Part shown: positions 8,749 to 35,330 of the stretch, piece after piece
Position numbering within the stretch: position 1 is the first letter of the stretch
Layout: the number at the start of each line of letters is the position of its first letter
NCBI GenBank assembly: GCA_023662875.1
Contig: JAMPIG010000028.1
Location: 1 to 37,895, forward strand
Source of the DNA: Roseburia sp.
Lineage (GTDB): Bacteria; Bacillota; Clostridia; Lachnospirales; Lachnospiraceae
Direction of reading: 5' to 3'
Length of the DNA: 37,895 nucleotides
Notes under the pieces: model-generated
The model's input: the letters and a program-made list of their open reading frames with translations, nothing else
Told to the model about the DNA's origin: nothing
Database searches by the model: none
Made by a program: the position numbers and the translations under genes

Positions 8749-8780
8749 CGGCATCAGAAAAACGAAGGAGGATGACAGTC

Positions 8781-9812: not shown

Positions 9813-9818
9813 CATGGC

Positions 9819-10673: not shown

Positions 10674-10694
10674 ACTCTTCCTCCCCGTCCCCCC

Positions 10695-11549: not shown

Positions 11550-11552
11550 ATC

Positions 11553-12473: not shown

Positions 12474-12500
12474 CCTTCCATCCCACTTTCTTTTCTGTCT

Positions 12501-12561
12501 GCGGCGAATCCCGCCGCAGGGAGTCTTCTTTTACAATGCGGAAGGCCCTGAAGCCTTCCGC
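12501..12561 (-). terminator. Intercistronic hairpins between binding-protein and permease genes
   Basis: Two stems: GCGGAAGGC / GCCTTCCGC (12538-12561) and GCGGCG / CGCCGC (12501-12517). Neither has a clean T tract on the minus strand, so they are better seen as partial terminators or 3' stabilisers that raise binding-protein mRNA above permease mRNA. A related GAAGGC / GCCTTC stem lies in the operon leader at 14067-14083. Confidence 0.5.
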
Positions 12562-12632
12562 AGCCTTTTCTTTTCTATTGATTTTTCATACTTTTGTCAT
12601 GCCGCCTGCGGCGACACAAACTCTTTGCACAC

Positions 12633-16665: not shown

Positions 16666-16750
16666 TGTTATTGTGACTAAATCAAAAACTGACAAACCGG
16701 AAGACAAGGAAAGGCAGCTATGGGAACGGGAATCATGCTATGCGGCTTAA
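16658..16750 (+). pseudogene. N-terminal fragment of a type I restriction methylase (hsdM-like) gene
   Basis: A 30-codon frame starting MADVIVTKSKTDKPEDKERQ followed by LW, overlapping the RhuM stop by eight bases as in coupled operon genes. This opening resembles type I modification subunits, which continue LWKAADKLR or similar. Here the match stops after LW, exactly where the P-loop kinase gene begins, and the frame ends after eight unrelated codons. This looks like a deletion or insertion junction that removed the rest of a restriction system. Confidence 0.5.
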
Positions 16751-17244
16751 ACGGCACAGGGAAAAGTACCCTGGGAAAGGCTCTGGCGCAGGAGCTTCAT
16801 TATCACTTTATCGATAACGAGGATCTGTACTTCCCCAAGACAAGCCCCGATTACCTCTATGCCTCTCCCCGCACGCGCCGTGAGGTCGAGGAGCTCCTTT
16901 TCCGGGAGATCAAGGCCCACGAAAATTTCCTCTTTGCCTCCGTAAAAGGCGACTACGGAAAGGCTGTTTACCCGTATTTTCAGTACGCTATTCTCCTTAC
17001 GGTTCCGCGAGAAATCCGGCTTCAACGGATCAGAAACCGCTCCTTTGAGAAATTCGGCGACAGGATGCTGCCCGGCGGAGATCTCTATGAGCGGGAAGAA
17101 CGCTTTTTTCAGTTTGCCGCCGCCAGAGATGAAAATACGGTAGAAGAATGGCTGCGGGAGCTGAGCTGTCCGATTCTGCGGGCGGACGGTACAAGGCCGG
17201 TTCGGGAGAATGTCGCCCTGCTGCTAAAGCGCCTTCCGCTCTGA
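16720..17244 (+). CDS. P-loop AAA/shikimate-kinase-like small kinase
   Basis: A 174-residue P-loop protein with Walker A GLNGTGKST near residues 9-17, a Walker-B-like YAILLTVP, and a lid with paired Arg (LQRIRNRSFEKFG). The fold resembles shikimate/gluconate kinase-like nucleotide or metabolite kinases. The substrate cannot be told. The ATG at 16720 lies at the RhuM/hsdM junction and lacks a good ribosome site of its own (only GGAAAGG about eight bases away). The inner ATG giving MLCGLNGTGKST is a possible start. GC content rises again from here on, so the gene probably belongs to the resident chromosome and lost its upstream region to the island. Confidence 0.8.
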   Translation: MGTGIMLCGLNGTGKSTLGKALAQELHYHFIDNEDLYFPKTSPDYLYASPRTRREVEELLFREIKAHENFLFASVKGDYGKAVYPYFQYAILLTVPREIRLQRIRNRSFEKFGDRMLPGGDLYEREERFFQFAAARDENTVEEWLRELSCPILRADGTRPVRENVALLLKRLPL

Positions 17245-17268
17245 TCAGTTGACCGGCAAGGTTCCCTC

Positions 17269-19071
17269 TTACTCCCCCTCCTCATCCTCTAACTCAATCA
17301 TTCCCTTTTTCAGCGCTCCGTCCCGGTATTTCGACACGATAATATACTTCCCCTGCATGGAATCGATGCCGTCGAAAACCGGCTCGATTCTCTGCTCTCC
17401 CCTCAGCCCTGCCATACCGTATTTTCGGACTGTCATGTCGGAATCCGTATATACATACCCGGGAATCATATCGTACTCCCTGTTATACCAGGGTTCGCTG
17501 ATAAAAAAAGAAGAATCCCGGAATACATCCTTTCCCTCCTCGTCGATGATGCCGCACAGCGTCTTTGTGACAAAGGCCGCCCCGTCATGAAACTCGCCGA
17601 CCAAAAACGGCTGTCCCCCCGCCGCATCATAGGGATAGAAGTCAATCACCGTCCGCCCTTCCCGATCAATGTAGGCCCACGCGTCGAAGCCCTCCAGAAA
17701 GGCGGCTTTTTTGACCGCCGCTTTTCCCTCGCTGAAATTGCCCGCGTCATCATAGCCGCACTCCACGCAAAGCTTTCCCTGTAAATCAAGGTATCCCCAC
17801 TTGCCGCCTGATCTTACCGCCGCTCTCTCCTCATGAAAGGACTTGACCTCTTCATAACAAGGTTCCACGACCAGACTTCCCTCATTATCCAGGAAACCCC
17901 ATTTCCCGTCCCGCTTTACCGCAGCCCTGCCTTCGCGGAAGGACTCCGCTTCTTCATAAAGCGGCTCCACAACGATACTTCCGCCGCCATCCAAAAAGCC
18001 CCATTTCCCGTCCCGCTTTACCGCCGCTTTCCCTTCCTGAAACGCCTTGATCTCCTCATATTCCGCCGGAACAATTACCCTTCCCGCCTTGTCAATCAGC
18101 CCCCACAAACCGTTCTGCTTTACGGCTCCAATACCCTCGCTGAAACCTCCCGCAGCCTGGAATACTTCCTCAAAAACAGCGTTTCCGTCGACGTCAATAT
18201 AATAACAGGACTCGCCGGAACGGACTGCCGCCAATCCTTCGCAATACCGGGCTATCCCGTCATATTGAAAATCCGTGATCGCTCTTCCCCACATATCGCC
18301 CAGCGCGAGCTTTCCGCTTTGATCCTGCACGGCGATTCTGTCTTCTCCGACAAAAGAAATGCTCTCATATTTCCCCGGTTCGATTACCCAGCTCCACGAC
18401 CGCTCCTCCGTTTCCGTTAAGACCGTCCATAAAACATCGTCCGTTCCCACTTCAAGATATTTTCCCTCCAGCTCAAGCCAGTCCTCATAGGATATGTTTT
18501 TATCCTCCAAAAAATAGGAATCCCCTTCGCCGAATTGACCGTCTCCATCCGCATCATAGCACGCGAACATCAGGTTCCAGACCTCTTCGCCCGCGTCATT
18601 TACTTTAAAATACTTATAATCGTAATGAAGCGGCGCGCCTCCGATATGCAGATACAAATAATCCCCGTTATTGAGAAGCGCGGTCTGCGGAAGAAAACTG
18701 CCCCATAAAGACAGCTTATCTTTTTCGCAGTCTATCACATAATAGCCCTTTCCACTTCTGATATGAAGCTCTGAAAGTCCGTCCCCGTCGCAATCAAAAA
18801 AGGCGTATTCCGAAAAATATCGTTTTTCCGGCTCTCCTGTCGGCACGGTTATCTCAGTAATATCCCACCCGTCCGCCGACCTGGCTCCTTCCAGGAATTC
18901 CAGATACATGCGATATTCTTTTTTTCCTTGTACCGCCTTTCTTACCGGCGGAATCATGAAAAAAGCAATCACGCCTGCCAGCAGAATACCAAAAACGAGC
19001 CGCCGGATTCTTCTTTTTCGCTTCCGGAACTCTCTGGTTTGGGGATTCCCCGCCTGTATGTGAAAATTCAA
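17269..19071 (-). CDS. Membrane-anchored WG-repeat protein
   Basis: A 600-residue protein. A basic N terminus (REFRKRKRRIRR) leads into one membrane helix (LVFGILLAGVIAFFMI), so the bulk should face outward. Two Asp-rich loops, FFDCDGDGLSEL and CYDADGDGQFGEG, look like EF-hand or dockerin-type calcium sites. From about residue 230 there are at least six WG repeats (NGLWGLIDKAGRVIVPAEYE; DGKWGFLDGGGSIVVEPLYE; DGKWGFLDNEGSLVVEPCYE; GGKWGYLDLQGKLCVE), each a beta-strand unit. The start codon is TTG at 19071 with GGGAG upstream. It may act as a surface binding or adhesion protein. The end lies 24 bases from the convergent kinase gene. Confidence 0.88.
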   Translation of the reverse strand: MNFHIQAGNPQTREFRKRKRRIRRLVFGILLAGVIAFFMIPPVRKAVQGKKEYRMYLEFLEGARSADGWDITEITVPTGEPEKRYFSEYAFFDCDGDGLSELHIRSGKGYYVIDCEKDKLSLWGSFLPQTALLNNGDYLYLHIGGAPLHYDYKYFKVNDAGEEVWNLMFACYDADGDGQFGEGDSYFLEDKNISYEDWLELEGKYLEVGTDDVLWTVLTETEERSWSWVIEPGKYESISFVGEDRIAVQDQSGKLALGDMWGRAITDFQYDGIARYCEGLAAVRSGESCYYIDVDGNAVFEEVFQAAGGFSEGIGAVKQNGLWGLIDKAGRVIVPAEYEEIKAFQEGKAAVKRDGKWGFLDGGGSIVVEPLYEEAESFREGRAAVKRDGKWGFLDNEGSLVVEPCYEEVKSFHEERAAVRSGGKWGYLDLQGKLCVECGYDDAGNFSEGKAAVKKAAFLEGFDAWAYIDREGRTVIDFYPYDAAGGQPFLVGEFHDGAAFVTKTLCGIIDEEGKDVFRDSSFFISEPWYNREYDMIPGYVYTDSDMTVRKYGMAGLRGEQRIEPVFDGIDSMQGKYIIVSKYRDGALKKGMIELEDEEGE

Positions 19072-20967: not shown

Positions 20968-22500
20968 TTACCGCTCCGCGGTCGCCAGCACAGCGATCCC
21001 TTCCTTTCCCGGAAGCTTTACCTGGACGCGGCCGCCCGCGCCTTCCCTGACCACCTCCCGGGTCATCTCCCAGGTATCGATCACCTCGATCCGGTAGCTG
21101 CCGCCCTCCGGCAGGTTCAGCTCTCCCAAAGCGGTACACTCCTTCCCGTAATAGCGCAGATAGACCTCCTCCCCGCAGTGGGACACGCAGGGACGCTCCC
21201 GCAGAAGGAAGGGAAGAACCCTCTCCTCGGGCATGGGAATCAACCCTCTCAGGAAAAAGTTATTCCTCATCTCCTCCGGAAGCCCTGTCTTTTTCAGCTC
21301 TGCAATCATCTCCGCCGTAATCTTTCCGGCACCCTCCGGCAGAAATTCCAGCGGCCCCGGCAGGCTCTCCATAATCTCCCGCAGGAAAGCGATCCTGGCC
21401 GGACTTTCGCCCTTTAAGACGCCGCCCCTGGCCCACCAGAGGATCTCGTCGTCGCTATAGTAGGTCTCCCCGTGGGTGCAGTACCCGCCGTAGGCCATCG
21501 CCGTCCAGAAACGGTGCACCATCTCCCTGGCGGAAAGGCTGCCCCAGGGATGAATAATATTTCCCTCGTAGCGGCATTCATCGAAAATCACCGGCTTTTG
21601 ATACTTCCGCTGCAGCTCCGGCACCTCGTCTACGGTGATGTCCTGAATGCAGCAGTGGGTGATCTCCGGCTGGCTGAAATCCCAGTAATCGAAGCAGTTA
21701 TGATTGCTGAGCAGATGACCGTAGGGGTCGTGCTCCTTCAGAAAACGGGCAAAGTCCGTCCAGTCCTCCCTCGTGTAATTGTCCATCAGATCATACTCGT
21801 TGGCAAGGCTCCACCAAAGATTCGGGAAAGCGCTGAAGCGCCGGGTCAGATAGTCCAGATAGGTCAGGCTGTCCTCCTTGCTCAAATGCGCAAAGCCCCA
21901 GCGGTCGTAGGGGTGAAACAGGATCAGATCCCCCTGAATTCCCATCTCATCCAGCTGCCGGATTCTCTCCTCAAAAGCGTCCCAAAAGGCGAAGCAGGGC
22001 CTGTTTACATCCCATTCGCCGTCCTTCTTCTCAAAAGCGTAATACTCCGGCTCGTTATGGTTAAAATCATAATGCTTGGGAAAAAGGCAGAAGCGGACTT
22101 TATTAAAGGGAGCCTTTGACAGGGTCTCCATAGTCGTATCCACCAGCGCCTTCTCCTGATGAACCAGCGCGTAAACCGTCGTGCCGACGGGACGGTAACA
22201 GGTTCCGTCCTCGTGTTTAAAATGCAGGCCGTCCACGCGAACCATGCCGTGGTTCCCTTCCCGGGCGGGAAGGCATTCCTCCTGTCCCTCCCCCGCGACC
22301 GCTCCCTCGACACGCCAGCGGTAGACGCCGGGCCTCCGGGGGTAAAAGCGAACCTTATAAACGCCGTTTCCCGCGTAAAAGCCGGTTACGGTCTCCGTCT
22401 CATTCTCACGGGTAAACTCTCCCCAAAGATCTACCACAGCCTGGGAACCTGTGGGCTCCTGTCCCTGAAGGCTCAACTCAAACATTTCGTACTGTCGCAT
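20968..22500 (-). CDS. DUF5060/DUF5605-type glycoside hydrolase (clan GH-A fold)
   Basis: A 510-residue protein. The N-terminal beta-sandwich (residues 1-85, EMFELSLQG to VYRWRVEG) fits DUF5060, followed by a TIM barrel of the DUF4038/apiosidase-like sort and a small C-terminal sandwich (DUF5605-like). Likely catalytic Glu residues are in LWWSLANEYDL (about 234) and KPVIFDECRYEGN (about 307), matching acid/base and nucleophile positions of clan GH-A. No signal peptide, so it works in the cytoplasm. AAGGAGG before the ATG at 22500 corrects the longer open frame. It is the last gene of the isomerase/transketolase/kinase block. The substrate is unknown; release of the pentose used by that block is the attractive guess. 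Confidence 0.82.
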   Translation of the reverse strand: MRQYEMFELSLQGQEPTGSQAVVDLWGEFTRENETETVTGFYAGNGVYKVRFYPRRPGVYRWRVEGAVAGEGQEECLPAREGNHGMVRVDGLHFKHEDGTCYRPVGTTVYALVHQEKALVDTTMETLSKAPFNKVRFCLFPKHYDFNHNEPEYYAFEKKDGEWDVNRPCFAFWDAFEERIRQLDEMGIQGDLILFHPYDRWGFAHLSKEDSLTYLDYLTRRFSAFPNLWWSLANEYDLMDNYTREDWTDFARFLKEHDPYGHLLSNHNCFDYWDFSQPEITHCCIQDITVDEVPELQRKYQKPVIFDECRYEGNIIHPWGSLSAREMVHRFWTAMAYGGYCTHGETYYSDDEILWWARGGVLKGESPARIAFLREIMESLPGPLEFLPEGAGKITAEMIAELKKTGLPEEMRNNFFLRGLIPMPEERVLPFLLRERPCVSHCGEEVYLRYYGKECTALGELNLPEGGSYRIEVIDTWEMTREVVREGAGGRVQVKLPGKEGIAVLATAER

Positions 22501-22549
22501 AAAAGACCTCCTTCTTAATCTAAAATCAAACCTGTTCTTAATGTCAACA

Positions 22550-22601
22550 ACCCCGCCGCAAGCAACGGGCATCAAATTGGAATCGCCCCAAGGGGCGGGG
22601 T
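22550..22601. repeat. Nested GC-rich hairpin, possible IS200/IS605-type end
   Basis: ACCCCGCC (22550-22557) pairs with GGCGGGGT (22594-22601), while CGCCCC-AA-GGGGCG inside it (22584-22597) is a competing stem. The sequence context resembles hairpin ends of small transposon relatives in clostridia, but no transposase is near. It sits between the kinase stop and the glycosidase start. Confidence 0.4.
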
Positions 22602-22660
22602 ATGTTGGCCCTCGCGGCATTCGCTGAATGGATGCTGACGCATCCGCCTGACAAAGCTTC

Positions 22661-24115
22661 CTACGCGCGCCTCAGCGCCTCCTGCCAGCGGGCTCTTTTC
22701 TCCTCCCGAACCGCAGACTCCATCTCCGGGACATACCGCCGATACCGAGCCTTCCCGAAAAGCGTCTCCCGCCTCCAGAGACCCGCCGTAATCCCCGCCA
22801 GGTAAGCGGCCCCCGTGACAGACAGCTCGTTGTTCTCCGCAGCGTTTACCCTCGTCCCGGACAGGTCGCCCTGAAACTGCATCAGGTAAGAGTTTTTCGC
22901 CGCTCCGCCGTCCGCCCGAAGCTCCCGGATGCTCTGCCCGCTGTCCTGCTCCATAGCCTTCAATACATCCGTGATCTGATAAGCGATGCTTTCCAGCGCC
23001 GCCTTCACGATCTCCGCCCGGCCTGTGGTGCGGCTCATTCCCCAGAGCAGAGCCCTGGCGTCCTCCCGCCAGTAGGGCGCGGACAGTCCCGTAAAGGCCG
23101 GCACCAGTATCGTACCGTCCCCGGGATTTGCGGTCTCCGCCAAGGCCGCCGTCTCCTCCGGCCTCTCGATCAGCTTCATGTCATCCTTCAGCCAGGTCAC
23201 GACCGCTCCCGTATAATTAATATTTCCTTCCAGTACGTAAGCGACCTTCCCGTCGATCCCCCAGGCCAGGGATGAGACAAGCCCGTTTTTGCTGCGGATT
23301 CTCTTCTCCCCGGTATTCATCATAATCGAGGAGCCCGTCCCGTAGGTGGTCTTGACCATCCCTGCCTGATGACAGCCCTGTCCGTACAGAGCGGCGTGGG
23401 AATCTCCCAATACCGCCAGAATCGGAACCTTACGCTCCAAAAGCCCCTCAAAATCCGTACTGCCAAAGCAGCTGTTGCTGTCGCAGACCCGAGGCAGCGC
23501 CTCCATCGACACGCCGAACAGGCCGCAAAGCTCCCGATCCCACTCCAGCGTCTCCAGGTGAAAAAGCTGGGTGCGGGAGGCGTTGGAATAATCCGTCTGA
23601 AAGGAAGCCCCGCCCGTCAGGCGGTAAACCAGCCAGCTGTCGACCGTGCCAAGGCGCAGCTCCCTCTCGGACGGCAGCTTTCCAGCCTCCTGTTCCAGGA
23701 GCCAGGTCATCTTCGCCGCCGGGAAATAGGGGGACAGGGGAATCCCCGTCTTCTCGTAAACTGCAGCCCCATACTCCTTCAGCCGCTCGGTGACGGACGC
23801 CGCCCGGCCGCACTGCCAGACTACCGCGCCCGCCAGCGGCGCGCCGCTTTTCTCCCAGAGCACCGTGGTCTCCCGCTGATTACAGATTCCGACAGCCTCG
23901 ATCTCCGCCCCGGAAACGCCCGCCGCTTTCACCGCCTGCCCGACCGCACGAATCACGTTCCGATAAATTTCCTCCGGGTCATGGGACACCCAGCCCCGCC
24001 CATTGATCAGCTGTCTGTGAGGGATGTCCGCCCGGCTTACCGGAAGCCCCGCCCCGTCAAAGAGAACCGCCTTGGTTCCCTGGGTACTCTGATCGATCCC
24101 TAATATATATTTCAT
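22661..24115 (-). CDS. FGGY family carbohydrate kinase (glycerol-kinase-like; candidate D-apulose kinase)
   Basis: A 484-residue ATP-dependent sugar or polyol kinase. The N-terminal ATPase core starts ILGIDQSTQGTKAVLFDG. EAVGICNQRETTVLWEKSG and AVVWQCGRAAS resemble glycerol kinases but differ at the glycerol contacts (WQCGRA in place of WQDRR). The FGGY C-terminal signature is around IVKAALESIAYQITDVLKAM, and RADGGAAKNSYLMQFQGDLS follows. AGGAG before the ATG at 24115 sets the start. In this block it would phosphorylate the ketose made by the isomerase, giving a transketolase substrate. A TATAAT at 24178-24173 on the minus strand may be part of its own weak promoter. The family is sure; the substrate is inferred. 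Confidence 0.88.
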   Translation of the reverse strand: MKYILGIDQSTQGTKAVLFDGAGLPVSRADIPHRQLINGRGWVSHDPEEIYRNVIRAVGQAVKAAGVSGAEIEAVGICNQRETTVLWEKSGAPLAGAVVWQCGRAASVTERLKEYGAAVYEKTGIPLSPYFPAAKMTWLLEQEAGKLPSERELRLGTVDSWLVYRLTGGASFQTDYSNASRTQLFHLETLEWDRELCGLFGVSMEALPRVCDSNSCFGSTDFEGLLERKVPILAVLGDSHAALYGQGCHQAGMVKTTYGTGSSIMMNTGEKRIRSKNGLVSSLAWGIDGKVAYVLEGNINYTGAVVTWLKDDMKLIERPEETAALAETANPGDGTILVPAFTGLSAPYWREDARALLWGMSRTTGRAEIVKAALESIAYQITDVLKAMEQDSGQSIRELRADGGAAKNSYLMQFQGDLSGTRVNAAENNELSVTGAAYLAGITAGLWRRETLFGKARYRRYVPEMESAVREEKRARWQEALRRA

Positions 24116-24304
24116 TCTTGCGCTCCTATGCCATTCTGCCATCTGCGTTGAAAAATCAGGCAGCATATATTTATTATACCTGAAAAAAATCTCAGATCTA
24201 CCCTTCCGCCACAAATTCCTCCCTGCCAGTCGTCGGCAATATCCTTGTCTCTTTGCCGTCGCAACAAATCCAGTAATACAGAACTCTACCGTCGTGAAGT
24301 TTCT

Positions 24305-25252
24305 TCAGGAAGCGACTTCTGTCCCCAGCATCTCCCGGGCCGCCGCCGCGATCCCCCGCCGATCCAAGCCGTAATACGCGAAAATCTCCCGGTCTGTCCC
24401 GGCGATCAGATGTCCGTCCGGCAGCGCCAGATTCCTGACCCGCTTTGGATCTTCCGCGGCCAGCGTCTGGGCTACCATGCTTCCCAGCCCCCCGAAGGGA
24501 GAATGCTCCTCCACGGTGATGACCGCCCTGACCCCTGCTGCCTTCTCAAGAAGCGTCTCCCGATCCAGAGGCTTTACGCAGTACATATCCAGCACCGCCG
24601 CGCCGATCCCCTCCTGCCGCAGCTGCTTTGACGCGGCGTAAGCCTCCGCCGTCATCTCCCCGCAGGCGACCAGCAATACATCCGCCCCCTCCGCCAGCAC
24701 GCAGGCCCGGTTCAGGGTAAAGTCCATCCCGTCGTCGTAAATATCCTCCGACGCGGAACGGCTCACCCGCACATAGGCTGGCAGCTCATCCTGCAGCAGC
24801 GCCCGGATCAGCCTTGCCGTCTGGAACCGGTCGCTGGGCAGATAGACCCGCATATCCGGCAGGCTGGCAAAGGCCGCGATATCCTGACAGGAGTGATGGG
24901 TCATCCCCAGCGCCCCGTAGCTCACGCCGCCGCTGATCCCGATCAGGGTTACATTGGTTCGGGAGTAGGCCACATCTACCTTCGCCTGCTCGTAGCTCCT
25001 CGTCGAGAGAAAGCAGGCCGGGGAAGCCGCAAATACCTTCTTCCCGCAGGAGGCCATCCCCGCCGACACCGTGACGAGATTCTGCTCCGCGATCCCCAGC
25101 TCCACAAACTGCTCCGGAAACCTCTCCGCAAAGGCCGTCAGCGAGGCGGAACCCCTGGAGTCCGAACATGCCACTATGATATCCGGGTCAGTCTTCGCCG
25201 CCTCCAGCAGCGTGTCGCAGATTGCCTGCCGGTTTGTGATACGATTTCCCAT
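24305..25252 (-). CDS. Transketolase C-terminal subunit (split enzyme)
   Basis: A 315-residue protein covering the pyrimidine-binding and C-terminal domains of transketolase. FVELGIAEQNLVTVSAGMA contains the catalytic Glu that protonates thiamine diphosphate (about residue 56). VAYSRTNVTLIGISGGVSYG and MTHHSCQDIAAFASLPDMRV are typical, and VITVEEHSPFGGLGSMVAQ marks the C domain. The start is the ATG at 25252 with GAGGAG, one base after the stop of the N subunit, which implies translational coupling and a 1:1 complex. It transfers two-carbon ketol units between sugar phosphates. In this block it is probably dedicated to the kinase product. Confidence 0.93.
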   Translation of the reverse strand: MGNRITNRQAICDTLLEAAKTDPDIIVACSDSRGSASLTAFAERFPEQFVELGIAEQNLVTVSAGMASCGKKVFAASPACFLSTRSYEQAKVDVAYSRTNVTLIGISGGVSYGALGMTHHSCQDIAAFASLPDMRVYLPSDRFQTARLIRALLQDELPAYVRVSRSASEDIYDDGMDFTLNRACVLAEGADVLLVACGEMTAEAYAASKQLRQEGIGAAVLDMYCVKPLDRETLLEKAAGVRAVITVEEHSPFGGLGSMVAQTLAAEDPKRVRNLALPDGHLIAGTDREIFAYYGLDRRGIAAAAREMLGTEVAS

Positions 25253-25253
25253 G

Positions 25254-26087
25254 TCAGCTCTCCTCTCCGCCGTCCAGCACGGCATCCAGCTCTTTCAACG
25301 CCTGCTCATACTGTTCCCGGGTCATAACGCCGTGATGCCAGCCCTTCCGCCCCTCCATAAAGGATACGCCCTTCCCCTTAACGGTATGGGCGATAACAAC
25401 GCTGGGCTTCCCCCTCGTCTGAGCCGCCTCCTGAAAGGCCCGCAGGAGCTGCCCGCAGTCGTTGCCGTCCTCCGCGTGAATCACGTTCCAGCCGAAGGCC
25501 CGGAACTTATCGCCCAGATCGTCGCTGTTCATCACCTCCGCCGTCGGCCCGCTGATCTGCAGCCGGTTCAGATCCAACGCCGCGCAGAGGTTATCCAGCC
25601 CGTAATGGGCCGCCGCCATCATAGCCTCATAGTTGGAGCCCTCGGCCATCTCCCCGTCCCCCAGCACAACGTAGGTACGGTAGCTCTTCCGGCTCATCTT
25701 CGCCGCCAGCGCCGCTCCCGTGCCAAGCGCCAGCCCGTGTCCCAGAGAGCCCGAGTTGATTTCGATCCCCGGCACATCCGTGTTGGGATGGCCGATATAG
25801 CGGGAGCCGAAGGCGCTGAAGCCCTCGATCGCCTCCCGCTTGTCAAAAAAACCTTTTTCGCCCAGCACCATATACAGGGCGTCCACGCAATGCCCCTTGC
25901 TCAGGAAAAATCTGTCCCGATCCGGGGAGCCGAAATTTTCCGGCGACACATTCATCACTCGGAAGTAAAGCGTCGTCAGCAGATCGATCACGCTTAAGTC
26001 TCCCCCGATATGTCCCGCGCCGGAACGGTAAACCTCCTCGATGATATCCCGCCTCAGCTCATATGCTTTTCTCGTCAGAGCGTCCAT
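25254..26087 (-). CDS. Transketolase N-terminal subunit (split enzyme)
   Basis: A 277-residue thiamine-diphosphate-binding subunit. RRDIIEEVYRSGAGHIGGDL has the conserved Gly-His-x-Gly, FLSKGHCVDALYMVL and EINSGSLGHGLALGTGAALA follow, and the cofactor motif is GDGEMAEGSNYEAMMAAAHY to LDLNRLQ (about residues 142-175). AAAGGAAG before the ATG at 26087 gives the start; the open frame continues upstream through the isomerase tail but has no site there. It is paired with the C subunit immediately downstream. Confidence 0.93.
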   Translation of the reverse strand: MDALTRKAYELRRDIIEEVYRSGAGHIGGDLSVIDLLTTLYFRVMNVSPENFGSPDRDRFFLSKGHCVDALYMVLGEKGFFDKREAIEGFSAFGSRYIGHPNTDVPGIEINSGSLGHGLALGTGAALAAKMSRKSYRTYVVLGDGEMAEGSNYEAMMAAAHYGLDNLCAALDLNRLQISGPTAEVMNSDDLGDKFRAFGWNVIHAEDGNDCGQLLRAFQEAAQTRGKPSVVIAHTVKGKGVSFMEGRKGWHHGVMTREQYEQALKELDAVLDGGEES

Positions 26088-26179
26088 AATCTTCCTTTCC
26101 GGGGATCGCCTCTCCTCGAAGTCGTCCCAAAATCTTCCCCCGCTGTTATCCTTCCGTTCCGGTTTCACGCCGACTTGCT

Positions 26180-27577
26180 TCACCCCCGGATCCGCGCCTT
26201 GATCTCCTCCTCGTTGTCGTCGTACAGATCCGGCTTCACGCCGATATACTTGCACGCCTCGTACAACACGGGCGTCACATCCTTATGAATACCTACGCAG
26301 TGATGAATATAAGGGCCTTCCACCAGCTTCGCCTCCAGCCGCTTCAGATCCTTTACCTCTACCCAGACGTAGGTCCCCTTGGTATACGGGCCGTCCACGC
26401 CCTTCGCGTTCCCCAGCAGCAGCGAATACTCCCCATTGTCCCCGTCGAAGCGGCAGAGCGTCATCTCGCCGTGCTTCGCCTCCGCCTCTACCGCTCCCGG
26501 ATGGGAGAAGGCGAGCGGATAGCCGATGGTGGGCTTACAGGACGCGCAGGAGATGGGCCAGGGGCCGCAATGCTGCAGCAGCTCCCCGTTCTCGTTGTCG
26601 GGGTGCCGCACCGTCCAGTCCGCAAAGAAGCTTCTCGCCTCGTCCATACCGGCCGCCTCGACCAGGATCGAGGTAATCGCCCCGTGAATATCCGTCTCGC
26701 AGACCACCGGCAGCCCCTCCTCGTTCAGCAGGCTGTTAGCCGCGCAGGGCATAATCCCGATCTCCCCCTGCAGGGCGTTCCAGCATTGGATCGCCACGGC
26801 GTTGCACCCGTATTTATCCGCCAGCGTCCGCATCGCTACCTTCAGCGCCGCCACATTCTCCAGCTCCTCCGGCCGAATCGCTATCTCAAAGTTCTCCCGG
26901 CAGTACGCCACCGTCTCGGCAACCTTCGTCCCTTCCTCCTTCGCTCGTCTCATCTCCTCCGTCAGCTCCGGCATTGGAATCGGTGCCAGCTGAATATTGA
27001 ACTTTTCCAGCAGCTCTCCCTCGTTGCACATCGTAGACCAGAAATCAAAGGGTCTGGGCCCGATCTGCAGGATACGGGTTCTCCGAAACGCTTTCACGAC
27101 ATTGCAGACCGCCAGGAAATTCCGGATTCCCCGCTCAAACTCCGGATCCTCCAGCCTGCAGTTGCAAAGGTAGGTAAAGGGAACCTGAAACCGACGCAGC
27201 ACCTTCCCTGTAGCGAACAGCCCGCACTGGCTGTCCCGGAGCCTGACGCCGTTTTCGTCCGGCCTTTCGTCCCGCGGCCCCCAGAGCAGCACCGGCAGGT
27301 TCATCTCCTTCGCCAGTCTTGCCACCTCATACTCCGTTCCGAAATTACCGTGGGGAAAGAAAAGGCCGTCCACCCCTTCCCTCTTGAATTTTTCCGCAAT
27401 CCGGATCCGATCCGCCTCCTCATGAAGAAGACCGTCCTCCGCGATATCGTCAATATCGACGAAATCAACGCCCATCTCCTCCAGCTTTTTTCTGGTCAGA
27501 TCCGCGTACTTTACCGCGTCCGGCGCGGAAAAAATACTTCTTCTGGTCGGCGCATAGCCCAGCTTGATTTTTGCCAT
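26180..27577 (-). CDS. L-fucose/L-arabinose isomerase-family protein (candidate apiose or other aldose isomerase)
   Basis: A 465-residue member of the fucose/arabinose isomerase fold. It has a Rossmann-like N domain (GLFFPHGNFGTEYEVARLAK, VLLWGPRDERP), an active-site region with AVAIQCWNALQGEIGIMPCA (Glu and Cys) and VVCETDIHGAITSILVEAAG (Glu and Asp), both typical metal ligands, and a C domain with HCGPWPISCASCKPTIGYPL. Such enzymes turn an aldose into its ketose. AGGGGATTCAC precedes the ATG. It is the first gene of the minus-strand block with split transketolase and FGGY kinase, under a promoter covered by a 23-bp palindrome. The sugar is unknown; see the apiose finding. Confidence 0.85.
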   Translation of the reverse strand: MAKIKLGYAPTRRSIFSAPDAVKYADLTRKKLEEMGVDFVDIDDIAEDGLLHEEADRIRIAEKFKREGVDGLFFPHGNFGTEYEVARLAKEMNLPVLLWGPRDERPDENGVRLRDSQCGLFATGKVLRRFQVPFTYLCNCRLEDPEFERGIRNFLAVCNVVKAFRRTRILQIGPRPFDFWSTMCNEGELLEKFNIQLAPIPMPELTEEMRRAKEEGTKVAETVAYCRENFEIAIRPEELENVAALKVAMRTLADKYGCNAVAIQCWNALQGEIGIMPCAANSLLNEEGLPVVCETDIHGAITSILVEAAGMDEARSFFADWTVRHPDNENGELLQHCGPWPISCASCKPTIGYPLAFSHPGAVEAEAKHGEMTLCRFDGDNGEYSLLLGNAKGVDGPYTKGTYVWVEVKDLKRLEAKLVEGPYIHHCVGIHKDVTPVLYEACKYIGVKPDLYDDNEEEIKARIRG

Positions 27578-27741: not shown

Positions 27742-27782
27742 ATTATTTAGTAAATTCATCTTAATTTCAATTTGAAATTAAG
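27742..27782 (-). promoter_or_regulatory. Promoter and 23-bp operator of the isomerase block
   Basis: On the minus strand TTGAAA (27770-27765), 17 bases, AATAAT (27747-27742). A perfect inverted repeat CTTAATTTCAA, T, TTGAAATTAAG (27760-27782) covers the -35 box. A repressor bound there would shut off the isomerase, transketolase and kinase genes. It lacks the central CG of LacI operators, so a different regulator family may be involved. Confidence 0.65.
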
Positions 27783-27799: not shown

Positions 27800-27829
27800 T
27801 TGACTTAATTCACTTAATTCTACTATAAT
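27800..27829 (+). promoter_or_regulatory. Promoter of the kinase-fold gene, -10 within palindrome array 3
   Basis: TTGACT (27800-27805), 18 bases, TATAAT (27824-27829). The -10 box is the first arm of the first palindrome unit, so the array is partly transcribed as the gene leader. Confidence 0.6.
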
Positions 27830-27917
27830 AAAATCGTGGGAACGATTTTATTATCCAAGGGCTATAATAAAATCGTGGGAACGATTTTATTATCCAAGGG
27901 CTATAATAAAATTATAG
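27823..27917 (+). repeat. Array 3 of palindromic repeats (two identical 39-bp units and a half)
   Basis: Units at 27823 and 27862 read ATAATAAAAT, CGTGGGAACG, ATTTTATTAT with linker CCAAGGG, and a half unit starts at 27901 (CTATAATAAAATTATAG). The design is the same as arrays 1 and 2. The rest of the gap 27578-27991 holds the two promoters and the operator. Confidence 0.9.
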
Positions 27918-28933: not shown

Positions 28934-29064
28934 GTGGCATACCTCCTTTCCGAAACAAGCGTACCACATTTCGGATACAATGTCTACTCCATTATTAAAA
29001 AACTGCGCGAGATACCATGCGCTAAGATTCCATGACCAAACCTCACAGAAAGGAAATCCTACCT

Positions 29065-30081
29065 ATGTCCGTTACCGCAAAGAAGCTGGCGGAAACTCTG
29101 GGGCTCTCGGAGGCCGCGGTCTCCATGGCCCTGAACAACAAGCCGGGCGTCAGCACCGCTACCCGCCAAAGGGTATTAACCGCCGCAAAAGAGCAGGGCT
29201 ACGACTTCAGCAGGCTGAACGAGGCCGAATCCGTCTCCCGCTCCATGAAGGGAACCCTTTATTTTATCATCTACCGCAAGCACGGCGCGGTGGTGGCCGA
29301 TACCCCCTTCTTCTCCGAGTTATCCCAGGGGATCGACAGCGGCTGCAAAAAGCATCATTATTACCTGAACGTGTTCTACCTGGACGAGGACGAAAATACC
29401 AGGGAACGTCTGCAGAGCATGATCCACTTTGACTGCAGGGGGATCCTGCTGCTCGGCACGGAGATGCAGGCAGGCGACCTGGAACCCTTCCTGCGCCTGA
29501 AGCTCCCCCTGGTGATCCTGGATACCTACTTTGAAACTCTGGCGGCAGATTACGTCCTGATCAACAATATGCAGGGAGCCTATCTGGCCACGGATTATCT
29601 CATCAACCACTGTAAGAGCCAGCCCGGCTACCTGCGCTCCTCCTACTCCATCAATAACTTCCAGGAGCGGGCGGACGGCTTTTATAAGGCAGTCCGCAGC
29701 CACGGCCTGCCGACCTCCCGCTCCGTCGTCCATCTGCTATCCCCCTCCCTGGAGGGGGCTTACGCGGATATGCTGGAAATCCTGAGGGCCGGGGAGGAGA
29801 CCGCCTCCTGCTACTTCGCGGACAACGACCTGATCGCCTGCGGCGCGATAAAGGCCCTGCGGGAGTATGGCTTCCGGATTCCTCAGGATATCTCCGTCAT
29901 CGGCTTCGACAATCTTCCGGTATCCTCCTATGCGGAGCCCTCGCTGACGACGATCCATGTCCCAAAGCAGGACATGGGCGAGGCGGCAGTGCGCCGTCTC
30001 GCCCATATCACCGAAAATCCGAAGGAAGCCCCGGTCAAGCTGGAAATCTCGACCCAGCTGGTCAAAAGGAAGTCCGTTTAG
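29065..30081 (+). CDS. LacI/GalR family transcriptional regulator of the rhamnosidase/GH3 region
   Basis: A 338-residue regulator. The helix-turn-helix and hinge are SVTAKKLAETLGLSEAAVSM and RQRVLTAAKEQGYDFSRLNE; the sensor domain has GCGAIKALREYG-like and DISVIGFDNLPVSSYAEPSL segments. The start is ATG 29065 with AAGGAAATCCT upstream; the open frame reaches 29032 without a better site. It overlaps the convergent GH78 gene by four bases. Its targets are most simply the flanking glycosidase genes or the isomerase block; an AACCGGTT palindrome before the GH3 gene is a candidate site. Confidence 0.9.
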   Translation: MSVTAKKLAETLGLSEAAVSMALNNKPGVSTATRQRVLTAAKEQGYDFSRLNEAESVSRSMKGTLYFIIYRKHGAVVADTPFFSELSQGIDSGCKKHHYYLNVFYLDEDENTRERLQSMIHFDCRGILLLGTEMQAGDLEPFLRLKLPLVILDTYFETLAADYVLINNMQGAYLATDYLINHCKSQPGYLRSSYSINNFQERADGFYKAVRSHGLPTSRSVVHLLSPSLEGAYADMLEILRAGEETASCYFADNDLIACGAIKALREYGFRIPQDISVIGFDNLPVSSYAEPSLTTIHVPKQDMGEAAVRRLAHITENPKEAPVKLEISTQLVKRKSV

Positions 30082-32909
30082 AACGCCGCCAGCATCCGAT
30101 CCAGGCCGTCCAGCTGCTCTTCGTTCATCCTGCCGCCGAACTTCTCCGCCAGCTCCCGCATGGATAGTCCCTTATATTGCTCCGGAATCTGATCCAGAGG
30201 AATCATCCGGGACAATTTCTCCGCCAGCTTTTTGTTTCCCAGAAGCTCCCGCAGTGGAGTGCGGGTGCTGTAGCTTCTTTTCAGGGGCTCGTCCGTCTCG
30301 TAAGAGACGCTGTAGGTTCCGGGCTCCAGATAACAGATTCCCTCCCGCACATCCGCGAACATCGGATTCCCCTTGTCCGTAAAGGTCTCCGCCTTCGCAT
30401 GGGGCAGCCTCAGAGTCGCGCTGCAGCCGAAGGGTACGGTGACGCTGAGCTCTACGTGGGAGGGATCCGTCAGCCTCCAGGCGCTCTTATACAGGCCGGA
30501 GGGAGAGTCGTATTCCGCCTCCATACTGCGAAGCTCCCAGTTGAGCAGCGGCTCGAAGGAAACCCTGGTAAAGCCCGGCGCTTCGTCTACGGAATTGATT
30601 CCCGCGCTGTGGCGGAACATCCACTCCTCCACCGAGCCGTAGGAATAATGGTTCATGCTGTTCATGCCGATCCCGGAGATCGTCCCGTCGGAGAGGAGGC
30701 TGTTCCAGCGCTCCCAGACCGTCGTCGCCCCCAGCTTCACCTCGTTGAGCCAGCCCGGGTACTCCTCGTTCAGCAAAAGCTCGTAAGCCAGCTTGTCGAA
30801 GCCGTTCTCCGTGAGCACGTTGCAGAGAAGAGGCGTCCCCACAAAACCGGTTTGCAGCTTGTTATTATTCTCCTCGAAAAGCTTTTTCAGCTGCGCCTTC
30901 GTCAGCTCTATGTTTTCGGACAGACGGTATTTCAGGGTCAGGATCATCGCCGTCTGGGTCTTGATGCAGCAGCGGCCCGTCGCGCTGTAGTACTCCCGCT
31001 TTACAATCTCAAACTGCTCTTCCGACAGCTTTTTATACTTCTCCTCCTCTTCCCTCCGGCCCAGCACAGCCGCCGCCTTCGCGACGATCCCGGCGCTGGC
31101 CGCATAATAGATGTTGGCGATAAATTCCTCGTCGGTCGCCCCCAGGGTCTGCTCCGCGCCTCCCTTCGGATTGTCCAGCGCCAGCCAGTCCCCGTAGTGG
31201 AACACGTACCGCCAGCCGTGGTAATCGCCGTCCACCTCTGTAATATAATCCACCCAGGATCTCATGCTCTCAAACTGATCCTCCAGGATACTCCTGTCCC
31301 CGTAGAACAGATAGAGGTTCCAGGGGATGATACAGGAGGCGTCCCCCCAGACGCAGGCGCAGGATTCCACTCCGCAGGAGGGCACCACATCCGGCACCTT
31401 CCCGCCTAAGGCGCTCTGCTCCCGGGCCATGTCGTAGAGATACTTGGCGTAGAAGGCATAGGTATCCTTCAGGTAGGTCGCCGTCGGCGAAAAGACCTGG
31501 GCGTCCCCCGTCCAGCCCATGCGCTCGTCCCTCTGGGGGCAGTCCGTCGGCACGTCCACAAAGTTCCCCTGCAGGCCCCAGCGCACATTTTCGATAAAGC
31601 GGTTCACCAGCTCATGGCCCGTGCGGAGCCGCCCCTTCTCCTCGATCTCGCTGTAATAAGCCCAGCCGGTAAAGTCCTCCGGCTTCAGGTCGGAAACGCC
31701 CTCGATTTTGACGTAGCGATAGCCGTAAAAGGTAAAGTGCGGGATCAGCAGCTTCTCCTTCCCGTCGCTGATGTAATAGTACTCGGACTTTGCGGAGCGC
31801 AGGTTCGCGTTGTAGAAATTGCCCTGCTGCAGAATCTCTCCCGTCTGGATATGGATCACCGTCCCCGCGGGCTCATGTACCCGCAGGGCGAAAATTCCCG
31901 TAAATTCCTGGCCCATGTCAAAGACGGACTCTCCCGCCGGTGTTTTCAGCAGCTTCGCCGGGCGGAAGGTCTCCTGTACCGTCACCGGGAGGCTCATCCG
32001 ATCCGTCAGCTTCCCCTCCGGTGCCGGACAGAGCACGGCCTCCGTCACCGGGAGAGGCTCTAGGGTATCGTCCTGCCACTCGCCGTCGTATAAATTCGAG
32101 AAGGTAATATTGCTGCGCCGCACCTTCCAGGTCTTGTCTGTCCCGATGACCTGCGTCCTCCCGTCCGCGTAGGTCAGATGCAGCTCCGCGATCAGCTTCC
32201 ACTGATCGCCGTAAAAGCCGATGTCCTCTACCGCAGTGAACCCGAACCGGGCCTTGTACCAACCGTTCCCCAGCAGTACGGAGAGGGTTCCGCCCTCCTG
32301 CAGCAGCCCGGTCACGTCAAAGGTCTGGTACTGCACCCACTCCTTATAATCATTGCTGTAGGGCGTGAGATATTCCTTCCCGATCCGCTCCGCCTCGCCG
32401 CCCTTCCGGGTATAATACGCCTCGTAAAGCCCCAGGCCGCAGAGATACAGCCGGGCCTGCGCCACCTGTCCCTCCGGGGCGATCTCCTTCTCAAACCAGG
32501 GATGCCGCTTCTCGGAAACCACTCCCTTCGCCTCGTCCGACGGGCTGGTCTCCAAGGGCTGGCAGCTGATCCACCTGCCCGTCCAGGGCTCCTCCCGCTT
32601 CCCCGTCTCGAACCACTGCACCTCGCCGGAGGCTTCCTCCCCGGCGTCCGTGCGCACGGTCACATCCCAATAATAGCGGGTTCTCGGCCGCAGCGCCACC
32701 TCCGCCCGGTAAGCCAGGGAGCTGGCCTGGCTGTCAAATCCGGAGTCAAATAAAATTTCCTGAAGCTCCGGATCAGCCGCCACCCGGATCCTGGCCGCCT
32801 CCTGCTGCTTCCCTTTCGCCTCCGCTGCCTTCCAGGAAAAGACGCATCTCTCCATGCGAAACCCCAGCGGATTCCTCAAATGATTCACCTTTAAATCATA
32901 TAGTCTCAT
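30078..32909 (-). CDS. GH78 alpha-L-rhamnosidase, cytoplasmic
   Basis: A 943-residue enzyme that cuts terminal alpha-L-rhamnose from plant glycosides or rhamnogalacturonan fragments. It shows the family layout: N-terminal beta-sandwich domains (RYYWDVTVRTDAGEEASGEV, ARLYLCGLGLYEAYYTRKG), an (alpha/alpha)6 barrel with CPQRDERMGWTGDAQVF at about residue 462 (catalytic acid Glu and conserved Asp), and WNSLLSDGTISGIGMNSMNH, then a C-terminal sandwich. A C-terminal extension of about 60 residues (EKLSRMIPLDQIPEQYKGLS) is a helical tail found in some clostridial members. There is no signal peptide, so substrates must be imported. GGTAAGGAGG precedes the ATG. Confidence 0.93.
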   Translation of the reverse strand: MRLYDLKVNHLRNPLGFRMERCVFSWKAAEAKGKQQEAARIRVAADPELQEILFDSGFDSQASSLAYRAEVALRPRTRYYWDVTVRTDAGEEASGEVQWFETGKREEPWTGRWISCQPLETSPSDEAKGVVSEKRHPWFEKEIAPEGQVAQARLYLCGLGLYEAYYTRKGGEAERIGKEYLTPYSNDYKEWVQYQTFDVTGLLQEGGTLSVLLGNGWYKARFGFTAVEDIGFYGDQWKLIAELHLTYADGRTQVIGTDKTWKVRRSNITFSNLYDGEWQDDTLEPLPVTEAVLCPAPEGKLTDRMSLPVTVQETFRPAKLLKTPAGESVFDMGQEFTGIFALRVHEPAGTVIHIQTGEILQQGNFYNANLRSAKSEYYYISDGKEKLLIPHFTFYGYRYVKIEGVSDLKPEDFTGWAYYSEIEEKGRLRTGHELVNRFIENVRWGLQGNFVDVPTDCPQRDERMGWTGDAQVFSPTATYLKDTYAFYAKYLYDMAREQSALGGKVPDVVPSCGVESCACVWGDASCIIPWNLYLFYGDRSILEDQFESMRSWVDYITEVDGDYHGWRYVFHYGDWLALDNPKGGAEQTLGATDEEFIANIYYAASAGIVAKAAAVLGRREEEEKYKKLSEEQFEIVKREYYSATGRCCIKTQTAMILTLKYRLSENIELTKAQLKKLFEENNNKLQTGFVGTPLLCNVLTENGFDKLAYELLLNEEYPGWLNEVKLGATTVWERWNSLLSDGTISGIGMNSMNHYSYGSVEEWMFRHSAGINSVDEAPGFTRVSFEPLLNWELRSMEAEYDSPSGLYKSAWRLTDPSHVELSVTVPFGCSATLRLPHAKAETFTDKGNPMFADVREGICYLEPGTYSVSYETDEPLKRSYSTRTPLRELLGNKKLAEKLSRMIPLDQIPEQYKGLSMRELAEKFGGRMNEEQLDGLDRMLAAF

Positions 32910-33065: not shown

Positions 33066-35330
33066 TTACGCCAGACTCTGCAGCATCCCCTCCAGCTGCT
33101 CCTCGGTCACACGACCGTAGGAAACCAGCGCCCCTAACGGCATCTCCATCATCATCGCCTGCATCATCTTACTCGTTCCCTCGCCCATATTCTGGGACAT
33201 CTCCGCCTCGTGCATCTCCTGAGAGCTATCGGCCTGGCCCATCAGACTGCCCAAAAGCGCCCGGCCCCTCTCTGTAGCGGCAAGATCCCCGATGGTGGAA
33301 AACCGGGTATACACTATCGGGATTTCGTCCTTGGAATCCACCTGTACCTCAGCGGCCAGGCGGATGTCCTCCGCGGAAGCGCCCGCCAGAATCTCATAGC
33401 TGCCGCTCTCCACAAACCAGTCGTGAACCCGCTCCTCGTAATAAGCGAAGGCCCTGCGATCCAGCTCAAAGCTTACTTCCTTCTCCTCCCCGGGCTCCAG
33501 GGCAACCTTGGCAAAGCCCTTCAGCTCCTTTATCGGGCGGATCATTCCGCTGCCCTTCGGTGCCACATAGAGCTGTACCGCTTCCTTTCCAGCCCTGGCT
33601 CCCGTATTTTTTACCTTCCAGGAAGCCCGCAGAACCTCCCCGTCGCCGAGGCGCTGGCTGCTCAGCTTCAGATCGCTGTAGGCAAATGTCGTATAGGACA
33701 GTCCGAATCCGAAGGGGAAGCGAACCGGCATCTTCTTTTTATCGTAATACCGATATCCCACAAAGAGATTCTCCCGATAGCTGACAATTCCGTTCTCCCC
33801 GGGAAAATTCAGGTAGGAGGGAGTATCCTCCAGCCTTAAAGGCCAGGTCTCCGCCAGCTTTCCGGAGGGGTTCCACTCTCCCGTCAGCAGCTTTACCGCC
33901 GCGCCGCCTACGGCGCTTCCGCCCAGGTGCATCAGCAGCACGCCCGCCACCTCGTCAAACCAGGGCAGCTCCATGGGCGAACCTCCGTGAAGCACGACGA
34001 TCGTATTCTTCTGTACCTTCGCCACTTCCCGAATCAGCTCGTTCTGGTTTTCCGGCATCGCCATATGCTCCCGGTCGCAGCCCTCCGTCTCAAAGCTCTC
34101 CGGCAGACCCGCGAAAATTACGGCGGCCTCCGCCTTCGCGGCAGCCTCTACCGCCTCCCGCAGCAGCTCCGGATCCGTCTCCTCCCCGGAAGGGTCGTAC
34201 CCCTTCGCATAGACCGCCTGCAGACCGGCCGTACACTCCAGCGCCCCCGCGGGATGCTTTTCGTTGATATGGCTGCTGCCCGCCCCCTGATACCTGGGCT
34301 TTCCCGCGAAGCTGCCGATGAAGGCCAGCTTCCTCTCCCGGCCCAGCGGCAACACCCCTTCATTCTTTAACAGGACAGCGCATTCTCCCGCAAATTCTTC
34401 CGCCCTCTTCCGCGCCTTGGCCCGGTCGAAGACCGCGTCCTCCTTCTGGTTCTCCAGGGCCGCCTTCACGAACCGCAGCTGATTCCGCACGGCCTGATCC
34501 AGCTCCTCCATCGTCAGCGTGCCGTCCTCCAGCGCCTTCAGGATCGGCTCCGTCCTGCCCTCGCGGCTGCCCGGCATCTCCAGATCCACCCCGGCCTGAA
34601 TTCCCTGCGGCCTTCTCTTGGTAGCGCCCCAGTCCGTCACCACAAAGCCATCAAAGCCCCATTCCTTCCGCAGGATATCGTTCAGCAGCTCCCCGTTCTC
34701 CGAGCAGAATACCCCGTTGATCGCGTTGTAGGCGCACATGATGCTGCGGGTATGCCCTTCCTTTACCGCCGCCTCGAAGGCGGGAAGATAAATTTCGCGC
34801 AGGGTTCTCTCCTCTACCTGGGAGCTTCCCGACATCCTCCTTGTCTCCTGGTTATTCGCGGCGAAATGCTTGACGCAGGCCGCTACCCCCTGGCCCTGCA
34901 GCCCCCGGATATAAGCGGCGGCCAGCTTCCCCGCCAGATAGGGATCCTCGCTGAAATACTCGAAGTTCCTGCCGCAGAGAGGGCTTCTCTTGATATTGAC
35001 GCCCGGCCCCAGCAGCATCGCCACATGCTCCGCCTGGCATTCCTGCCCCAGCAGCTCTCCTAACTGCTCCAGGAGCTCCCGGTCAAAGGAAGCCGCGAAG
35101 GCGGAGGAGGTCGGATAACACACCGTCTCGATACTCTCGTTGATTCCCAGATGATCCCCCTCTCCGACCTGCTTCCGAAGTCCGTTGGGGCCGTCGCACA
35201 TCATAACGCCGGGGATCCCCAGCCTCTCGTTATCCTGGGTATACCAGAAGTCCCGCCCGGAACACATCTGCGCCTTCTCCTCCGTCGTCATTTCCCTTAA
35301 AACCTGCTCCACATCGAATGTTGCCTTCAT
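33066..35330 (-). CDS. GH3 beta-glycosidase, cytoplasmic
   Basis: A 754-residue glycoside hydrolase family 3 enzyme. The N-terminal barrel has PGVMMCDGPNGLRKQ and the nucleophile Asp in GFVVTDWGAT (about residue 231), preceded by HFAANNQETRRMSGSS. The second domain and fibronectin-like third domain follow (PFGFGLSYTTFAYSDLKLS). The last 80 residues form a Met-rich helical tail (SKMMQAMMMEMPLGALVSYG) also seen in clostridial beta-glucosidases. There is no signal peptide. GAGCGGAC precedes the ATG at 35330. Transcribed toward the rhamnosidase gene 157 bases away, it could remove beta-glucosyl or beta-xylosyl units after the rhamnosidase has acted. Exact specificity is unknown. Confidence 0.94.
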   Translation of the reverse strand: MKATFDVEQVLREMTTEEKAQMCSGRDFWYTQDNERLGIPGVMMCDGPNGLRKQVGEGDHLGINESIETVCYPTSSAFAASFDRELLEQLGELLGQECQAEHVAMLLGPGVNIKRSPLCGRNFEYFSEDPYLAGKLAAAYIRGLQGQGVAACVKHFAANNQETRRMSGSSQVEERTLREIYLPAFEAAVKEGHTRSIMCAYNAINGVFCSENGELLNDILRKEWGFDGFVVTDWGATKRRPQGIQAGVDLEMPGSREGRTEPILKALEDGTLTMEELDQAVRNQLRFVKAALENQKEDAVFDRAKARKRAEEFAGECAVLLKNEGVLPLGRERKLAFIGSFAGKPRYQGAGSSHINEKHPAGALECTAGLQAVYAKGYDPSGEETDPELLREAVEAAAKAEAAVIFAGLPESFETEGCDREHMAMPENQNELIREVAKVQKNTIVVLHGGSPMELPWFDEVAGVLLMHLGGSAVGGAAVKLLTGEWNPSGKLAETWPLRLEDTPSYLNFPGENGIVSYRENLFVGYRYYDKKKMPVRFPFGFGLSYTTFAYSDLKLSSQRLGDGEVLRASWKVKNTGARAGKEAVQLYVAPKGSGMIRPIKELKGFAKVALEPGEEKEVSFELDRRAFAYYEERVHDWFVESGSYEILAGASAEDIRLAAEVQVDSKDEIPIVYTRFSTIGDLAATERGRALLGSLMGQADSSQEMHEAEMSQNMGEGTSKMMQAMMMEMPLGALVSYGRVTEEQLEGMLQSLA

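Follow-up and report, generated by a model that had tools for sequence, protein, structure and literature searches.

A candidate Firmicutes version of the non-oxidative D-apiose route, proposed from a conserved isomerase, transketolase and kinase gene block in Roseburia

Which sugar is broken down by a gene block of Roseburia sp. that encodes a sugar isomerase, both halves of a split transketolase, an FGGY kinase and a glycosidase? The block lies on contig JAMPIG010000028.1 of assembly GCA_023662875.1, and the whole stretch of 37,895 nucleotides was analysed and is referred to here as the window. The non-oxidative D-apiose pathway (aplK, aptA, aptB, apsI), reportedly described by Carter et al. 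(2018), is found in Pectobacterium and in E. coli ST131 lineages, and a first-pass annotation of the window had suggested that the block is a Firmicutes version of it. We consider this likely, on the strength of the clade to which the transketolase is assigned, two pocket sites that the kinase has in common with AplK, the co-occurrence and linkage of the block with GH140-type apiosidase genes, and a related ATP-binding cassette (ABC) transporter beside part of the blocks. In the route proposed, which follows the known pathway chemistry, glycosidases (perhaps the DUF5060/DUF5605 enzyme of the window, and at other loci a GH140 apiosidase) would act on plant glycans or glycosides to free D-apiose, which the fucose-isomerase-type enzyme would convert to D-apulose. 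The FGGY kinase would phosphorylate D-apulose to apulose 4-phosphate, and the two-subunit transketolase, with glyceraldehyde 3-phosphate as acceptor of a two-carbon unit from apulose 4-phosphate, would form dihydroxyacetone phosphate and xylulose 5-phosphate. We infer all of these reactions, the substrate, the order of kinase before transketolase and the role of the window glycosidase. The layout described in the first-pass annotation was correct: all five genes are present on the minus strand (Table 1), with starts picked from the sequence, and one base separates the transketolase N-half (TKN) from the C-half (TKC), as TKN ends with its stop codon at 25254 and the ATG of TKC starts at 25252. 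For TKN the open reading frame (ORF) as listed starts at an upstream GTG at 26255, and 26087 was preferred. Pfam matched both transketolase halves and found FGGY_N and FGGY_C in the kinase; among the 30 window ORFs run against it none matched an aldolase or epimerase family, in keeping with the earlier remark that aldolase and 4-epimerase are missing.

The excerpt of PMC13001218 gives the E. coli SE15 genes ECSF_RS02700, RS02710 and RS02715 as aplK, aptA and aptB, and describes growth on D-apiose by three other E. coli strains and E. fergusonii carrying the cluster. The window proteins are 48% (TKN), 37% (TKC) and 38% (kinase) identical to those of SE15. For the transketolase, N and C halves were concatenated and a tree was built with 45 rows, 27 of them block rows chosen among the available loci; here the 27 block enzymes, five enteric ones, one from Rhizobium (function unproven) and that of locus L092 stood apart, at 100/100, from 11 other split transketolases, all of these from the same bacterial family as the window. 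L092 had been classed beforehand with the other split transketolases and was put on the apiose-type side by the tree; no half pair was called at L098 and L101 (the latter from the window's own genome), and both were left out. On sequence grounds we assign the window transketolase to the AptA/AptB clade. Separately, locus L110 (genome G015) pairs an apiose-clade transketolase with an FGGY kinase that has diverged (GDSS, GTGVS); an ABC transporter and a GH78 rhamnosidase are encoded next to them, and the locus might represent a related pathway.

The kinase is glycerol-kinase-like with altered substrate contacts, as previously stated. It is similar to the genome's own GlpK over its full length (41%), it passes the cut-off of the broader PRK00047 subfamily (543.2 vs 498 bits) and it retains the R, E, W, Y and D of the GlpK pocket motifs. 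At two pocket sites, where 18/18 GlpK proteins show D-Q-Q and C-F, the window kinase has GDSH (from residue 237) and GTGSS (from residue 259), that is, S-H for Q-Q and S-S for C-F. The same columns in the block kinases read D-S (30/30), H (29/30), S (28/30) and S (30/30), and DSH is also found in four enteric kinases and that of Rhizobium, together with SS in all but one of these five; among other FGGY kinases four are without the DSH/GSS letters and a fifth, from L110, has part of them. The Q and F columns, and a Tyr column considered below, are presumably glycerol contacts. GlpK itself was rejected as an identity for the window kinase, which scores 543.6 bits with TIGR01311, under the cut-off of 590.35, and has the two sites changed. 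A kinase tree (56 rows, with 30 block rows chosen among the available loci) resolved a block group (94/83), a GlpK group (100/99) and a group of enteric and Rhizobium enzymes (98/91). The correspondence with AplK, AptA and AptB anticipated by the first-pass annotation stood for the transketolase clade and the two pocket sites; for the kinase as a whole the signals are mixed, as it did not group with AplK in the tree.

The neighbourhood is well conserved across Lachnospiraceae. In a sample of 200 genomes of the same bacterial family 33 were isomerase-positive, the window's own among them, and the orthologs in the 32 others are 71–85% identical to the window protein; in the stretches fetched around these, isomerase, TKN, TKC and kinase are co-located at 31/32 loci, the exception being G084, where the transketolase–kinase pair sits on a different contig. 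A scan of a genome collection gave at least 554 places encoding a relative of the isomerase, the best 80 of which (some on short contigs) were kept as a second set, and all three partners are in reach at 77/80 of them (TKN at 80, TKC at 78, kinase at 78). Named hosts are Candidatus Galacturonibacter soehngenii, Blautia parvula, Hungatella hathewayi, Fusicatenibacter saccharivorans, Eisenbergiella tayi, Anaerocolumna and Lacrimispora, to which records from a plasmid collection add Monoglobus pectinilyticus (isomerase 70% identical) and Listeria monocytogenes (72%). Two irregularities were seen: the isomerase matches at L049:9085-10783 (G192) are split in two pieces, through a frameshift or an assembly error, and loci L107, L108 and L109 (G057, G085 and G084) combine LacI, a ribose-type ABC set, TKN, TKC and kinase, where the ketose is perhaps imported directly.

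The DUF5060 and DUF5605 domains already ascribed to the window glycosidase were found by Pfam, which also matched PF13204 ('Apiosidase-like') at 44.6 bits (cut-off 26.5). A phmmer search against PDB returned only 4n0r, a putative glycoside hydrolase, and no GH140 structure, and membership of GH140 by direct match was rejected on this result; Glu235 and Glu308 align with Glu residues of 4n0r and are predicted to be catalytic. At locus L056 TKC and kinase are separated by a gene whose product reaches 320 bits with PF13204 and matches PDB entries 3kzs/5msy (1.6e-100) and 8t9w ('Apiosidase'; 7e-66); 5msy we take to be a GH140 apiosidase. With the L056 gene as query at E 1e-40, GH140-type apiosidases were found in 11 of the 200 genomes, and each of the 11 belongs to the 33 isomerase-positive genomes (Fisher, nominal p 5e-10, the tests treating genomes as independent). 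Within GH28-positive genomes the isomerase is present in 9/9 with GH140 vs 6/35 without, and within GH78-positive genomes in 11/11 vs 15/52; as controls, the isomerase-positive share is 15/44 for GH28, 26/63 for GH78 and 9/15 for DUF5605 genomes. A weaker GH140-like gene in G067 (28%) was excluded from the count. Physical linkage is seen as well, with a GH140-type gene no more than 10 kb from the isomerase in 17/80 loci and a gene of the DUF5060 type, the family of the window glycosidase, at 25 further loci, so that PF13204-superfamily glycosidases accompany 42/80 in all. The GH140-type gene of the genome to which the window belongs is on another contig (C122). Domain similarity and linkage make the window glycosidase a possible apiosidase from outside GH140.

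For the isomerase the evidence on fold comes from profile searches. The match to Pfam Fucose_iso_C is sub-threshold, L-arabinose isomerase structures are matched by a profile built on 18 relatives (best E 6e-5), and a search with the single sequence found nothing; E294, D320 and H426 are invariant in an 18-sequence superfamily alignment. The idea that the block has an isomerase of a different fold from that of the known pathway found no support, as in those enteric clusters that have an isomerase it is also of the fucose/arabinose-isomerase family, in a separate clade. In Rahnella, Sodalis and Klebsiella (three of five enteric records with an apiose-type transketolase) a protein of 472 amino acids (aa), annotated as of the fucose or L-fucose/L-arabinose isomerase family, is encoded between TKC and kinase, and we infer that this is apsI. 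E. coli SE15 has two oxidoreductases in place of an isomerase, and in the Erwinia stretch the transketolase is accompanied by neither an isomerase nor a kinase gene. Other isomerases of this kind were met in different surroundings. Clusters at L046:7244-17812, L048:3126-10732 and L047 encode a 56–59% identical paralog of the window isomerase, other FGGY kinases (XylB-like at L046) and an aldolase-like gene, with a 44% relative of the enteric isomerase at L046 and L048 too; they are without the block transketolase and would represent a different sugar route from that of the block. The gene at G000:C102:6033-7358 (L256) encodes an SftI-like isomerase whose score with the sulfoquinovose isomerase model, about 411 bits, is under the cut-off.

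A ribose-type ABC set with DUF2291 adjoins the block at 10/32 other loci, and in comparison with the apiose transporter of SE15 one representative binding protein is 43%, one ATPase 48% and the DUF2291 protein 23% identical; ribose and apiose may share this carrier. The operon is probably under the control of the LacI-type regulator, homologs of which occur in 27/32 other isomerase-ortholog stretches and, with one other query, in 31/80 loci; in the window the LacI gene is separated from the isomerase by a small gene for a RIO-like kinase. A search for a CG-centred LacI operator upstream of the isomerase was negative (2/78 stretches, shuffled mean 1.7 sites), and longer palindromes were found there in 37/69 stretches vs 6–18 in five shuffles. 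The form CTTAAT-N9to13-ATTAAG has 15 sites in the 80 loci (1.39 Mb), 14 of them upstream of the isomerase, a count that is no independent test since the motif was picked on part of the same loci; relatives of the window palindrome start 72–155 bp upstream of the isomerase in 14/80 loci, one with a spacer of 10. The palindrome occurs at a single place in the window's genome (91.8% complete; up to three mismatches allowed), and the GH140 gene on contig C122 is therefore not tied to the operon by this motif. Also upstream of the isomerase, a 39-nt sequence is present in two identical copies at positions 27823-27900, both of which contain a perfect 13-bp inverted repeat; the 30-nt core of these copies has no other occurrence in the genome at up to three mismatches.

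Several observations weigh against D-apiose as the substrate or against the enzymes being true counterparts of those in enteric bacteria. The block kinases join GlpK, not AplK, in the tree at 97/88, although it should be noted that the root is weak and the branches are long. SE15 AplK gives 328 bits to the window kinase and likewise to the genome's own GlpK (other block kinases reach up to 383 bits), the Tyr column (window residue 163) keeps the Y of GlpK in 29/30 block kinases, against L in enteric AplK and M in the Rhizobium enzyme, and at 30 columns that separate block kinases from GlpK, AplK sides with the block at 11, with GlpK at nine and with neither at 10. The window isomerase is 25–27% identical to the 472-aa enteric protein (over 90–97% of the window protein), and enteric and block isomerases form separate clades; they share a superfamily, and orthology is not supported. 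Transketolase–kinase clusters without an isomerase in reach occur in G057, G085 and G084. An RbsD_FucU gene is present in 6/10 of the ABC sets, a PfkB-family kinase is encoded near seven blocks, and no apiose-type ABC set is linked in the window. Finally, GH78 and GH28 too go with the isomerase, and 22/33 isomerase-positive genomes are without a GH140 hit at E 1e-40.

The first of these points bear on a different order of steps with the same sugar, in which the transketolase would split apulose itself to dihydroxyacetone and xylulose 5-phosphate and the GlpK-like kinase would phosphorylate the dihydroxyacetone, on which GlpK is known to act. The GlpK-type Tyr and the equal scores with SE15 AplK make this order slightly more probable, and the D-apiose proposal slightly less so, and the position of the block kinases beside GlpK also speaks for this order; the AplK letters at the two other pocket sites argue the other way, as does the characterised pathway, in which the kinase acts before the transketolase, and on balance we regard it as unlikely. 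The block could instead serve another pentose or ketose, of the ribose, xylose or arabinose type, through a ketose phosphate accepted by the transketolase; ribose-type ABC sets with RbsD_FucU, the nearby PfkB genes, and the presence of arabinose and fucose isomerases in the superfamily would fit, whereas a dedicated transketolase of the AptAB clade would not be expected for common pentoses, nor would the link to GH140, and no epimerase is found among the window ORFs tested, so that such a substrate seems improbable. A route for sulfo-sugars, with a sulfoquinovose isomerase and a sulfofructose transketolase, comes into consideration because SftI (NF048012) is the only NCBIfam match of the isomerase at E 0.001. 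The score is 106 bits against a cut-off of 700, on which the window isomerase was rejected as SftI, and is close to that of the enteric isomerase (116 bits). SftI-like proteins, found at E 1e-100 in 13/200 genomes with none above the cut-off, form a clade separate from the block isomerases, and the window transketolase had no match in 6/6 stretches around them (the transketolase tree holds no characterised sulfofructose transketolase). The kinase would have no place in such a route, which we consider very improbable. Catabolism of D-apiose through apulose 4-phosphate accordingly stays our preferred explanation of the block.

Table 1. Positions of the block genes and of flanking features in the window
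Feature	Position	Strand	Remarks
Sugar isomerase, proposed D-apiose isomerase	26180..27577	-	465 aa; L-fucose/L-arabinose isomerase superfamily
Transketolase N-half (TKN), proposed apulose-4-phosphate transketolase subunit A	25254..26087	-	277 aa
Transketolase C-half (TKC), proposed apulose-4-phosphate transketolase subunit B	24305..25252	-	315 aa
FGGY kinase, GlpK subfamily, proposed D-apulose kinase	22661..24115	-	484 aa; GDSH and GTGSS as in AplK
DUF5060 / PF13204 Apiosidase-like / DUF5605 glycosidase	20968..22500	-	510 aa
LacI-type regulator, putative regulator of the operon	29032..30081	+	homologs in other isomerase-ortholog loci
GH78 alpha-L-rhamnosidase, possible accessory	30078..32909	-	homologs at other blocks
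GH3 glycosidase, possible accessory	33066..35330	-	profile match
23-bp palindrome CTTAAT-N11-ATTAAG, candidate operator	27760..27782	no strand	183-205 bp upstream of isomerase

Homologs of the GH78 gene come straight after the kinase in loci L057, L065 and L067. Farther off, the window encodes a pectinesterase (46-1104), a LacI-like gene (by clustering) with a HAD hydrolase and an ABC sugar transporter set, genes of a plant-glycan type (8772-14030), and a RhuM-family protein with a 600-aa WG-repeat protein (15637-19071).

The pathway as such is already known; in the version proposed here the isomerase and the presumed sugar-releasing enzyme come from branches for which the literature searched gave no test. 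That search, outside which Carter et al. (2018) lay, found no assignment of apiose to this block; the excerpt of PMC13001218 states apiose degradation by gut Clostridia as shown. According to the excerpts of PMC10952590 and PMC10602602, apiose occurs in rhamnogalacturonan II and in dietary glycosides such as the apiin of celery and parsley. Should the proposal be right, one substrate would unite the genes that in many Firmicutes currently carry the annotations 'fucose/arabinose isomerase', 'transketolase' and 'glycerol kinase', and the Listeria operon would acquire a likely function and the DUF5060/DUF5605 glycosidase a substrate that can be tested. A more far-reaching combination would make the block the principal means by which plant-feeding Firmicutes, Lachnospiraceae as well as Monoglobus and Listeria monocytogenes (lmo1030-1036), break down apiose; its D-apiose isomerase would have been separately recruited inside the fucose-isomerase superfamily, and DUF5060/PF13204/DUF5605 proteins would be a new apiosidase family. 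This combination is put forward tentatively, its chance of holding in every part being somewhat short of even.

In comparison with the non-oxidative D-apiose pathway of enteric bacteria, the block is alike in its two-subunit transketolase clade, in two kinase pocket sites, in the superfamily of its isomerase and in the ABC transporter beside some blocks, and unlike in the low identity and separate clade of the isomerase and in a kinase that does not group with AplK in the tree. The enteric clusters have a 'sugar-binding transcriptional regulator' where the block has one of LacI type, and the block differs from them further in the PF13204-superfamily glycosidases nearby in 42/80 loci. The window glycosidase resembles GH140 beta-D-apiosidases (3kzs/5msy, 8t9w) in PF13204 and differs in carrying DUF5060 and DUF5605, and the window kinase resembles GlpK over its length and in the R, E, W, Y and D retained, and differs at the Q-Q and C-F columns, as do 28–30 of 30 block kinases. 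In Listeria monocytogenes NCTC7974 (L133:4004-13086) the order LacI, isomerase, TKN, TKC, kinase is as in the block, and is followed by an additional beta-glucoside transporter of the phosphotransferase system (PTS; IIBCA) and a DUF4038 apiosidase-like protein with 8t9w as its best PDB match (2.5e-25). This operon, which from the gene numbering and from matching products is probably lmo1030-lmo1036, is a candidate for apioside uptake. The excerpt of PMC2996996 lists lmo1030-lmo1036 without a pathway and calls lmo1030 BglG-family, and that of PMC8079631 describes lmo1035-1036 as a beta-glucoside PTS and a beta-glucosidase.

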